In this document: one piece after another, positions 6,133 to 53,343 of the stretch
Position numbering within the stretch: position 1 is the first letter of the stretch
How the letters are laid out: every line of letters starts with the position of its first letter
Assembly: GCF_015840335.1 (NCBI RefSeq)
Contig: NZ_CP060395.1
Location: 310,001 to 374,000 of the forward strand
From: Synechococcus sp. CBW1108
GTDB taxonomy: Bacteria > Cyanobacteriota > Cyanobacteriia > PCC-6307 > Cyanobiaceae
Length of the DNA stretch: 64,000 nucleotides
Direction of reading: 5' to 3'
Position numbers and translations under genes: made by a program
The notes under the pieces: generated by a model
The model's input: only the letters and a program-made list of their open reading frames with translations
Databases searched by the model: none
What the model was told of the DNA's origin: nothing

Positions 6133-6170
6133 TTGCAGAGCCTGGGCGGATCGGCGCCCAGGCTCTGCAA
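6133..6170 (-). terminator. Perfect 16-bp inverted repeat, terminator-like
   Basis: Arms TTGCAGAGCCTGGGCG (6133-6148) and its exact reverse complement (6155-6170) flank the loop GATCGG. It starts 18 bases after the stop of the upstream minus-strand gene and ends about 43 bases before the hli start. It therefore probably ends the upstream transcript or shields its 3' end. There is no run of T after it in either direction, so a classic intrinsic terminator is not proven. It could equally be a 5' leader element of hli. Confidence 0.5.
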
Positions 6171-49194: not shown

Positions 49195-51252
49195 TCAGGC
49201 GCTGTAGGCCTTGCGGGCCGGGATCGGGTAGGGGATGCGACGGTGGCGCATCCGCTTCCACACCCGCACGAAGGCACGGATCAGCAGTTCTAGTTCGGCC
49301 CGGCTGATCCCGCTCTGCACCAGCTGGTTTTCAGCCTGGCGCGCCTGCACGATGCGACGCACCATCTGGCGTGCCTCCGCTTCGTTGGTGCCAGGAGGCA
49401 GAGAGCGCAGGGCAGCTTCACAGCCATCGGCCAGCATCAGGATTGCCGTTTCCCGACTGCGGGGCGTGGGGCCCAGATAGCGAAACCGCTGTTCGGGGGT
49501 ACTGGGATCCCTCTGGCGAGCCTGGTGGAGGAAGTAGCCCATCTTCAAAGTGCCCTGGTGCTCGGGGATAAAGTCGGCGAGGGGCCGGGGCAGCCGATAG
49601 CGGCGGGCCAGCTTCAGCCCCTCATCCACATGGGCCTGGAGGATTCGGGCGCTGGCGGCGGGGTCATCAAGGGCGTCGTGGGGGTTGCTGCCTTCCCCTT
49701 GGTTTTCGATGAACCACTGGGGGCCATGCAGCTTGCCCACGTCGTGATAAAGGGCCCCGGTACGCACCAGGTCGATATCGGCCTGGATCGCCCGAGCCCC
49801 CTCCTCAGCCAGGCCGGCGATCATCAGAGTGTGTTCGAAGGTGCCTGGCGCCTCAACCGATAGCCGCCGCAGCAGCGGCCGCTGCAGGTCGGCCAGCTCC
49901 ATCAGCCGCGCCCGGGTCACAAGCCCGAAGAAGGTCTCCACCAGTGGGGCCAGCAGCAGTCCCGCCATCAACAGCCCGCCCAGCAGCAGGGCCTCGCTGA
50001 GCAGGTCTACCTGCACCGCCGGGCTGCGGCTCTGCAGCAGCAGATACTGAACTCCCAGGCCCGCCCCCGGCAGCAGCACGGCCAGCTGCAGCAGTTCGGC
50101 CCGGTTGCGCTGCCGGCCGGCCGTCACCGCCGCTGCGCTGCCCACGCCAACGGCCACCAGCAGCCGCAGGGCAACCAGGCCCGTGATGGGTAGGGGCCAT
50201 AGCAAGCTGGCCGCCGCCAGCCAGGCCAGGCCGCAGGCCGTGCCCAGGCCCTGGGCCAGCAGCAACACCGGCGGCACCAGCAGCACCATGGGGCTGGCCA
50301 GGGGGCCCAACCAGAGGGTGAAGCCCTGCATCACCAACATGGCCCCCAGGGCCAGCAGGGCCTGCCGTGGCTCCAGACAGGCCCGCCAGCGCCGCAACAC
50401 GAGCACCATCACCCCCGCCACGGCCAGGGCCTCAAGGAAGTGGCCCAGCCAGGTCAGGGGGCGGGGCCGTCGGTTGACCAGACCGAAATAATCGAGCACA
50501 TCCAGAGCCTGGGGACTGATGGGCTCCCCCTGGCGGGTAACCAGATCGCCTTGCTGCACCACGATCGTGGGGATGCTCTGCTGGGTGATCAGGGCCTCGA
50601 TGCGCCGCTGGCTCAAGCCCTGGTCACTGCGCAGGTTGGAGTGGCCCTGCAGCGAAGCGGCCAGCAGCCTGGCGCCCAGCCCCCTCGGGATCGGCGCCAA
50701 CGACTCCAGTTGGAGGCTGGCGGCCTGCAGCAGGTGCCCTTCAGCCAATCCGGGAGCCAGCCCCTGGCTGAGCATGCGCAACTGGGCCTGGCGCACCTCC
50801 CGGGCCCAGGCCGTGAGCTCGGCGCTGCCCAGACCCTTCAGCCAGCTGCGCTCCTGGGCGGTGATCTGCACCGGTTCGAGGCGTGGTTGGTCGGCGTTGG
50901 CCTGCTGCTCCACCGCCTTGAGACCCTGCTCCAACTTCTGGCTCAGCAGTCGGTTGGTCTGCCCATCCACCACCTGGACAGTGATGCCCTGGACCAGCGC
51001 CTGACGGCGCTGGTCCAGGGCATCACTGTCGAGCACCCGGGCCGCCTGCGGGGCCCGCAGCGTGAACGGGGCCGCCATTCCGGGCCGCAGGCTGGGCTCC
51101 ACCAGCCAAGGCCAGCTCGCCACCAGGGCCACCAGGGCGCACACCAAAAGCACCGAGACCGTGTCTCGAGCGCGCCAGATTGCCGGCGACTGGCGCGGGC
51201 GCTCCAGTCGCAGCAGCTGACGCCAGAGGGATCGCAGCCGCCTCAACACCAT
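49195..51252 (-). CDS. 7TM-HD phosphodiesterase (PgpH-like)
   Basis: A 685-residue membrane protein: one N-terminal span, an extracytoplasmic 7TMR-HDED-like domain (about 60-250), about seven spans (265-430), then a cytoplasmic HD domain. The HD metal ligands are present: H in FEHTLMIAGLAEEG, HD in GALYHDVGKLHGP, and later H residues (NPHDALDDP, LQAHVDEG). In Listeria and others, PgpH of this layout cleaves the second messenger c-di-AMP. This is the only such candidate in the window. Confidence 0.88.
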   Translation of the reverse strand: MVLRRLRSLWRQLLRLERPRQSPAIWRARDTVSVLLVCALVALVASWPWLVEPSLRPGMAAPFTLRAPQAARVLDSDALDQRRQALVQGITVQVVDGQTNRLLSQKLEQGLKAVEQQANADQPRLEPVQITAQERSWLKGLGSAELTAWAREVRQAQLRMLSQGLAPGLAEGHLLQAASLQLESLAPIPRGLGARLLAASLQGHSNLRSDQGLSQRRIEALITQQSIPTIVVQQGDLVTRQGEPISPQALDVLDYFGLVNRRPRPLTWLGHFLEALAVAGVMVLVLRRWRACLEPRQALLALGAMLVMQGFTLWLGPLASPMVLLVPPVLLLAQGLGTACGLAWLAAASLLWPLPITGLVALRLLVAVGVGSAAAVTAGRQRNRAELLQLAVLLPGAGLGVQYLLLQSRSPAVQVDLLSEALLLGGLLMAGLLLAPLVETFFGLVTRARLMELADLQRPLLRRLSVEAPGTFEHTLMIAGLAEEGARAIQADIDLVRTGALYHDVGKLHGPQWFIENQGEGSNPHDALDDPAASARILQAHVDEGLKLARRYRLPRPLADFIPEHQGTLKMGYFLHQARQRDPSTPEQRFRYLGPTPRSRETAILMLADGCEAALRSLPPGTNEAEARQMVRRIVQARQAENQLVQSGISRAELELLIRAFVRVWKRMRHRRIPYPIPARKAYSA

Positions 51253-51321: not shown

Positions 51322-52200
51322 ATGGCCACCCTTCTGGATGGCCGCCGCCTGGCCGGCGAAATCGAAGCCCGGCTGCAGGCGGTGATTGCCATGCATGGCA
51401 CCCAGCTGGGTCGCCCCCCCGGGCTGGCCGTTTTACGGGTGGGTGATGACCCCGCCAGCGGCGTCTACGTAGCCAACAAGGAAAAGGCCTGCGCCAGGGT
51501 CGGCATCACCAGCCTCGGCGCCCATCTGGCCGCCGGCACCGGCGCCGAGGAGGTGCTCGCCGCCGTGCGCCGCCTCAATGCCGATCCCTGCTGTGATGGC
51601 ATCCTGCTGCAGCTGCCCCTGCCGGCCGGGCTGGCGGAGGGTCCCCTGCTGATGGCAATCGATCCGGCCAAGGATGCCGATGGTCTCCACACCCTCAACC
51701 TGGGCCACCTGCTCAAGGGGGAACCCGGGCCCCGCAGCTGCACCCCCGCCGGGGTGATGGCCCTGCTGGCCCGCCACAGCGTGGCGCTGGCCGGCCAACG
51801 GGCCGTGGTGGTGGGCCGCAGCATCCTGGTGGGCCAGCCCATGGCGCTGATGCTGCAGGCCGCCGACGCCACCGTCACGGTGGCCCATTCCCGCACCGCC
51901 GATCTGGCCGCCCTCACCCGCCAGGCCGACGTGCTGGTGGTGGCCGCCGGCCGACCGCGCATGATCGGCGCCGAGCACGTCAAACGTGGTGCGGTGGTGG
52001 TGGATGTGGGCATTCACCGCACCGAGAGCGGCCTCTGCGGCGATGTGCGCTTTGAGGAGGTGGAGCCGATCGCCAGTGCCATCAGCCCCGTGCCCGGCGG
52101 CGTTGGCCCAATGACCGTCACCATGCTGCTGGTGAACACCGTGGTGGCCTGGTGCCGCCGGGCCGGGCTGGACCACGGCCTGGGCGATCTGGTGCCTTAA
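51322..52200 (+). CDS. folD: Methylenetetrahydrofolate dehydrogenase/cyclohydrolase
   Basis: A bifunctional one-carbon enzyme that interconverts methylene- and formyl-tetrahydrofolate with NADP. The 292-residue protein keeps the catalytic Lys in YVANKEKAC, the [10 protein letters not shown] loop, the NADP motif [14 protein letters not shown] and the final [13 protein letters not shown]. Length is normal. It is divergent from the 7TM-HD gene; its start is preceded by a short AT-rich patch. Confidence 0.97.
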
Positions 52201-52273
52201 AAGAGATTGGACGGTCCCTGGGCTGGTCAGGATCCGGGGGGAGGTCAGGGTCGAGGGGGTGGTGTTCTGCTGC

Positions 52274-52311
52274 TGTCTTTGATTTTGTACAGCTGTACAG
52301 AATCAAAGACA
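52274..52311. promoter_or_regulatory. 38-bp near-perfect palindrome between folD and GGPP synthase
   Basis: Left arm TGTCTTTGATTTTGTACAG and right arm CTGTACAGAATCAAAGACA match in 18 of 19 positions with no spacer. The centre GTACAGCTGTAC resembles the GTAC-N4-GTWC core reported for cyanobacterial LexA, though the flanking bases differ. It lies about 90-110 bases before the likely GGPP synthase start. An RNA hairpin is also possible; no T run follows. Confidence 0.55.
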
Positions 52312-52401
52312 CTGTGCCCAGCGAAGCCAGAACTCTCGGCCGCAACGTTCTGCGCTCTTGAGCACCCTCTGCCACCCCGCCTGAGAGAATCCCCGCCAGG
52401 A

Positions 52402-53343
52402 ATGGCCAGAGGCCCAGCCCCCATGACCGCGGCGGTAACAACCACGTTTGATTTCGCCGCCTACCTGGAGGCCGCCCGCCTGAGGGTGGAAGGGGCGCTC
52501 GCTGCCTCCCTGGGGCCGGAGCGACCCGAGACCCTGCGGGAGGCGATGCGCTATTCACTGCTGGCTGGCGGCAAGAGGCTGCGGCCGATCCTCTGCCTGG
52601 CTGCCTGTGAGCTGGCCGGCGGCGACAGCGAGCTGGCGATGCCGACGGCGGTGGCCCTGGAGATGGTGCACACGATGTCGTTGATCCATGACGACCTTCC
52701 CGCCATGGACAACGACGACCTGCGCCGCGGCCGGCCCACCAACCACAAGGTTTACGGCGAAGCCAAGGCGATCTTGGCCGGCGATGCCCTGCTCACCCGC
52801 GCCTTCGAGATGGTGTCTCTGCGCAGCCCCGGCGTGCCCCCCCAGCAGCTGCTTGCCGTGGTGGGCGAACTCTCCCTGGCCTCCGGTGCCCCCGGCCTGG
52901 TGGGCGGACAGGTGGTGGATCTGGAATGCGAGGGCAAATCCGTTGACCTCGCCACCCTCGAATACATCCACCTGCACAAAACCGGCGCCCTGCTGCGGGC
53001 CTGCGTGCTCAGCGGCGCCCTGATCGCCGGCGCCCCAGAGGCGCTGCTGGCGGCCCTCCGCACCTACGCCCGCGGCATTGGCCTGGCCTTCCAGATCATC
53101 GACGACATCCTCGATGTCACCGCTAGCAGTGAGGTGCTCGGCAAGACCGCCGGCAAGGACCTCACCGCCGACAAGACCACCTATCCCAAGCTGCTGGGCC
53201 TGGAGGAATCCCGCCAGCGGGCCGATGCCCTGGTGGCCGAGGCCAAGGCGGCCCTGGCACCCTTTGCCACCGGGGAGCCGCAGGCGCTCAAGGCCGCGCC
53301 CCTACTCGCCCTGGCCGACTTCATCACCAGTCGCGACCGATGA
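52402..53343 (+). CDS. crtE: Geranylgeranyl diphosphate synthase
   Basis: A trans-prenyl transferase that makes GGPP for carotenoids, phytol and quinone tails. The product from the ATG at 52402 is 313 residues (306 from 52423). Both aspartate-rich Mg sites are intact: the first as [20 protein letters not shown] and the second as [18 protein letters not shown] near the start binds diphosphate. Farnesyl diphosphate synthase is the other possibility for this family. Its stop overlaps the next gene (ATGA). Confidence 0.92.

Follow-up and report, generated by a model that had tools for sequence, protein, structure and literature searches.

The palindrome between folD and crtE of Synechococcus sp. 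CBW1108 is one copy of an interspersed hairpin family with a constant centre and variable stems

The palindrome that lies between folD and crtE in Synechococcus sp. CBW1108 is one copy of an interspersed hairpin family of about 41 bp, in which a constant centre is flanked by variable, paired stems. The copies share this structure, are dispersed, lie near the 3′ ends of genes and turn over between species. We think it probable that they represent a REP-like element of freshwater picocyanobacteria, with a conserved middle and a variable stem, and that at the folD–crtE junction the element forms the 3′-end hairpin of the folD RNA. A mobile RNA or DNA hairpin is more likely than a switch for crtE. 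The window referred to throughout is the whole stretch of 64,000 nucleotides that was analysed (contig NZ_CP060395.1, positions 310,001 to 374,000), and the features of the junction are collected in Table 1. A limited literature search found no published description of the hairpin family.

Table 1. Features of the folD–crtE junction, in window coordinates
Feature	Position	Strand	Basis and remarks
folD, upstream neighbour	51322..52200	+	NF010783; folD stop to palindrome, 73 bases
Stretch of about 118 bases missing in G001, hairpin in its 3′ part	52205..52322 (ends approximate)	+	Comparison of folD–crtE gaps
38-bp palindrome representing the interspersed hairpin family in the window	52274..52311	.	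Direct comparison and covariance model R1
Constant centre, TTGTACAG/CTGTACAG in the window copy	52285..52300	.	Columns of the 17-sequence alignment, most of them invariant or almost so
CTGAGAGAAT box before crtE, possible −10-like promoter element	52381..52390	+	Conserved in crtE upstream regions
crtE, downstream neighbour	52423..53343	+	NF045685; palindrome to crtE start, 111 bases

The two arms of the palindrome (52274–52292 and 52293–52311) match at 18 of 19 positions with no spacer, just as the initial annotation of this DNA had described, and the single mismatch places a T opposite a G, where a G-U pair is possible in RNA of the plus strand. No other 38-base palindrome in the window is as good. 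The best found in 200 first-order Markov simulations of the window matched at 16 of 19 positions and none reached 17, in agreement with the earlier judgement that symmetry of this length is very unlikely to arise by chance. Folding of the gap gives a stem of 17 bp closed by a 4-base loop. Another strong inverted repeat, matching at 17 of 19 positions, lies at 50985–51022 (more widely about 50976–51029) inside an HDIG-domain gene on the minus strand; it is without the hairpin core, and none as good was seen in the 200 simulated windows. The third best, at 6133–6170, matches at 16 of 19 positions, and nine such palindromes occurred in the simulations.

NCBIfam assigns FolD and CrtE to the neighbours of the palindrome. 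From the end of folD (52200) to the start of crtE homology (52423) the gap measures 222 bases, so that the gap of about 200 bases noted earlier in the folD–crtE–helicase run is confirmed, as are the overlapping junctions after crtE, where crtE, a 180-aa ORF and the helicase ORF run into one another by a few bases. No NCBIfam match was obtained for the 180-aa ORF, and the RecD-type NCBIfam matches of the helicase ORF fall far under the curated cut-offs. A search of 52100–52600 against Rfam returned just four miRNA matches, far under their gathering scores (E 0.14–0.69).

The core of the family is CTGTACAG-N0-1-CTGTACAG, around which the stems vary from copy to copy and mostly remain paired. Its 12-base centre GTACAGCTGTAC occurs 14 times in the genome of 3.23 Mb, and the reversed control not once. 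When 150 bases of the gap were compared by BLAST with 40 genomes, the dispersed matches scarcely exceeded the palindrome, covering query positions 73–133 at their widest (the palindrome being 79–116), and the gap flanks matched at the crtE of relatives. In 17 aligned copies 11 of the 17 pairs are changed on both sides, and the covariation score is 0.300 compared with 0.149 ± 0.022 in shuffles, none of the 500 shuffles reaching 0.300. The rows of this alignment were located through the core or through BLAST searches with the palindrome and were picked by hand, and the alignment therefore favours pairing. A less biased set was obtained by retrieving 60 stretches from public genomes by 18 core bases alone, of which 45 came from picocyanobacteria (records named Cyanobium, Synechococcus, Synechococcaceae or Aphanothece) and 15 from other bacteria. 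Over the 10 stem positions that follow, the former have a mean of 6.1 paired and the latter 3.1 (Mann–Whitney p 0.0003, with several of the 45 sharing genomes). Seventeen of the 45 pair at eight positions or more, with 14 different left stems, and others are at chance level. The spacing of the centre also varies: an extra base separates the GTAC half-sites in 9 of the 15 copies kept for this genome and in 61 of 78 overall, a total that includes some loci fetched with a 1-base-centre pattern. Before this count 8 of 86 hairpins were dropped, namely repeat copies in L002, L004 and L005 and all of those in L003 and L114.

A further set of copies lies between the thiC leader and the same-strand upstream gene in six records, where the stems differ around an almost unchanging centre; in one record (L146) the gene was identified as ThiC by NCBIfam together with a TPP riboswitch. 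Pairing in this set is 86%. Its covariation is modest, with 18 of 500 shuffles reaching the score and 377 of 500 reaching the count of further pair types. By eye, the same junction holds a degenerate hairpin in L155 and none in L175.

The covariance model R1 scores positions 52273–52312 at 57.5 bits on the plus strand and 56.8 bits on the minus strand, the window copy being one of the model's own 17 training rows. This genome contains at least 24 separate R1 sites at E ≤ 0.001 and at least 34 at E ≤ 1, both lower bounds with 150 of 307 candidates scored. At E ≤ 0.1, 12 of the 16 genomes of the genus have matches and G002, G003, G008 and G011 have none, three of these four genomes being 85–88% complete. 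With stricter filters and E ≤ 0.001, matches were found in 19 of 151 sampled genomes of the family, in 8 of 59 genera. The carriers appear to be freshwater picocyanobacteria of the Cyanobium/Synechococcus group. The exact 18-base core is also present in two viral contigs (L226 and L227).

The sites avoid coding DNA, prefer convergent junctions and lie near 3′ ends after stop codons. Using our own codon-usage gene calls we classified 88 sites, of which 77 remained after repeat copies had been screened out by a letter filter: 32 tandem, 19 convergent, 7 divergent, 11 intragenic and 8 at locus edges. The locus-edge sites were excluded from the fractions below; the filter let through a few repeat copies (L002, L003, L114), and some of the sites are not independent of one another. 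Convergent junctions hold 19 of the 58 intergenic sites and make up 16% of intergenic space, while the corresponding figures are 7 of 58 and 23% for divergent junctions and 32 of 58 and 61% for tandem junctions. Only 11 of the 69 classified sites are intragenic, although coding sequence makes up 85% of the loci. Counted by eye, 28 of the 32 tandem sites are closer to the 3′ end of the upstream gene (p 2e-5), with five of the 32 being the same thiC junction in five records and one (L145, 6128) falling within the frame of an ftsY-like gene. At five loci a hairpin also lies inside the reading frame for the N-terminal part of an SRP54-type (ftsY-like) gene, and at two inside the frame of cbiB. In polA an in-frame stretch with a hairpin is present in G000, G015 and G012 and is lacking in the other 13 of 16 genomes, and this stretch makes the gene about 25 codons longer, by eye, than the polA of G001. 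REPs within replication and repair genes are known from the published account cited (PMC3733652).

Comparison of the crtE junction between relatives shows how the element turns over. A core-like palindrome is present in 5 of 30 crtE regions, those of this genome, G015, G005, G012 and G006. The sister genome G015 carries this palindrome the other way round, with 100% identity to the reverse strand, although two substitutions would give the same appearance as an inversion. The palindromes of G005 and G012 are altered, and that of G006 has a different stem within a gap of 577 bases before crtE, hairpin included. The distance from the folD stop to the crtE start is 222 bases here compared with 104 in G001. 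The expectation that close relatives carry the palindrome at this place is thus borne out by G015 and, in altered form, by G005 and G012, and fails in G001, where the stretch is missing. Downstream of the hairpin the CTGAGAGAAT box is exact in 26 of the 30 crtE upstream regions and has one-base variants in the remaining four. It begins 69 bases beyond the end of the palindrome, lies 32 bases before the crtE start and looks like a conserved crtE promoter element, and on account of its conservation crtE is likely to have a separate start site beyond the hairpin.

Mobility is also indicated by copies at other places. In WB8_1B_136 six similar stems (11.4 of 13 positions alike) lie at six places whose 200-base flanks share no BLAST match. 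Over all genomes stem likeness is 8.00 of 13 within and 7.31 between genomes (permutation p 0.006); the values are 7.11 and 7.14 for this genome, 6.0 and 6.91 for T1B-Tous and 7.83 and 7.68 for G012. The extra bases that accompany the hairpin at crtE, polA and polA–cysS number 75 to 514. Between polA and cysS, G015 has 528 bases including a hairpin, compared with 14 bases in 11 of 14 other genomes (this one included), an overlap in one and other DNA in two. Because similar stems stand at unlike flanks and extra DNA is present at polA–cysS, the copies move or arrive with DNA. A search for empty sites found no close pair with clean ends or a target duplication among those listed. The suggestion in the initial annotation that the palindrome is a recombination remnant therefore holds as regards dispersed copies and presence or absence in relatives, and not as regards a clean-ended insertion.

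The possibility that the palindrome is an RNA hairpin, also raised there, is supported by the covarying stems and by the location near 3′ ends. A terminator of folD and other genes, in which a strong hairpin releases RNA polymerase, would account for sites after stop codons and between convergent genes and for the 17-bp stem with its 4-base loop, and a T-rich tail occurs at 7 of 156 hairpin sides, a modest excess over the 24 of 1560 seen at random. Moreover, cyanobacteria are without Rho, and in the passages cited known pathways do not account for the ends of most S. elongatus transcription units, intrinsic termination leaving most of them unexplained (PMC13289151). We nevertheless regard this explanation as unlikely. 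The T-rich tail is absent at 149 of the 156 sides, no T-run follows the palindrome, and the constant centre would be needless. A terminator scan of the gap did not call the palindrome itself, its one weak match being a 5-pair stem on the minus strand beside it (52310–52323), with 0.3 expected by shuffling. A canonical intrinsic terminator is rejected, since the copies are mostly without a T-run.

Control of crtE by a dimeric regulator, LexA or another, that binds the symmetric centre is less probable still. The constant centre does call for a protein reader. Hairpin copies without the central base share the core GTAC-N4-GTAC with the cyanobacterial LexA box, which is given in the part of the source cited as RGTACNNNDGTWCB or AGTACWNWTGTACT, and this core fits both, except that the two outermost positions of the former disagree (PMC3091678). 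The window centre TGTACAGCTGTACA misses the first R and the last B and meets the other positions, so that the earlier description of it as near, but not identical to, the LexA core was accurate. However, the genus has its own lexA box, G[GA]T[AT]CATCTGTAT[TC]. The lexA family is matched in 16 of 16 genomes, 15 of them above the curated cut-off, and by eye this conserved LexA-type box stands before lexA at 15 of 15 loci (L210–L224), also in the four genomes without a hairpin match, whereas R1 has no match at these 15 lexA loci. LexA is therefore an unlikely reader of the hairpin, and identity with its box is rejected. The hairpin further differs from a LexA box in its longer stems, whose covariation reaches beyond any 14-bp box, and in its variable centre spacing, the extra base of many copies being forbidden by an N4-spaced box. 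The sites are also found more often after genes than at promoters. The operator proposed in the initial annotation is not supported, because the same element occurs at unrelated genes, because the CTGAGAGAAT box lies well downstream of the palindrome and because stem letters alter with pairing retained.

It is very unlikely that the hairpin serves as a recombination or capture site, that is, as an attachment site of small gene islets with a logic like that of attC. Many of this genome's copies crowd one repeat-rich island (1.518–1.545 Mb), in which 11 hairpin sites are spaced at 0.5–3.4 kb, except for a single interval of 10 kb, and are interspersed with DUF2887/DUF4351 genes, a group II intron maturase and ORFs that resemble, by eye, PIN toxins, antitoxins and IS genes. 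Extra DNA accompanies copies at polA–cysS in G015 and in the long gap before crtE in G006, and DUF2887 is found in 8 of the 10 genomes that have 10 or more hairpin matches, compared with none of the 6 others. Against this, segmental duplication suffices for some island copies because they have long flanks in common. The DUF2887 association is confounded by phylogeny, and DUF2887 is absent from G014 and G006 despite their hairpin matches; Rpn-type DUF2887 genes were rejected as a partner on these grounds. The island (L004–L005) also contains repeated DUF2887/DUF4351 genes and three ORFs with identical first 60 residues. Finally, a chance palindrome is refuted by the simulated windows, which hold no equal, and by its presence at the same site in G015 and, altered, in G005 and G012.

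Several known families of small repeats resemble the hairpin. Nostoc contains small dispersed repeats, reportedly described by Elhai in 2008, which to judge from the title alone are likewise very small mobile repeated elements of cyanobacteria. Rickettsia palindromic elements, of about 100–150 bp, are inserted in frame in genes; the hairpin unit measures about 41 bp and for the most part lies outside genes. Interspersed palindromic repeats are 20–60 bp, present in many copies and mainly extragenic, as is the hairpin. The closest likeness described in the sources cited is to the GTAG and CGTC superfamilies of REP elements, which are short palindromes of 20–60 bp (PMC3116915), present many times per genome in families of 20–100 units, lying downstream of genes and between unidirectional and convergent genes, in some cases in replication and repair genes, and with alternative complementary stem letters (PMC3733652). 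The hairpin differs from them in having a constant centre rather than an unpaired end tag, a stem of about 17 bp and 0 or 1 base at its centre. By eye, no unpaired GTAG tag is common to the alignment ends or the 15-base flanks. Nor does the hairpin have the unpaired CGTC, TGTC or CCTC tag, 8–9 bp stem and 4–5 base loop of CGTC REPs, as TGTC is present in the window copy but paired with GACA in a 17-bp stem. Mobilization by RAYT is not supported: the Y1 transposase (PF01797) is present in 5 of 16 genomes, this one included, and was not found in the hairpin carriers G010, G014, G004, G007, G001 and G006, and seven Y1 loci have no hairpin-model match.

For the REP-like element favoured here we suggest that copies spread by means of a trans-acting enzyme that would read the hairpin tip, and that those behind genes are tolerated and may be transcribed there as 3′-end hairpins, which could stop exonucleases or set where the RNA ends. 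In the present case the folD RNA would end at the hairpin, and crtE would be transcribed from a promoter of its own further downstream. Among the defined transcript ends without a U-tract in S. elongatus, REP-like stabilising structures are reported in the passages cited to be largely absent (PMC13289151). A more specific version, in which a candidate enzyme reads the constant tip CTGTACAG-N-CTGTACAG and copies or captures variable hairpins together with gene islets, while the host, lacking Rho, keeps them as 3′-end RNA hairpins, is a speculative one that we consider rather unlikely; if true, this structure-recognised mobile hairpin would be neither a REP/RAYT system nor an integron.

Palindromes of this kind should not be annotated as LexA boxes. 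With its constant centre and variable stem, the hairpin is well suited to the identification of whatever protein reads it. For the question of how RNAs are ended in cyanobacteria, which lack Rho, these hairpins behind genes of freshwater picocyanobacteria offer a testable case for RNA 3′-end formation or stabilisation.
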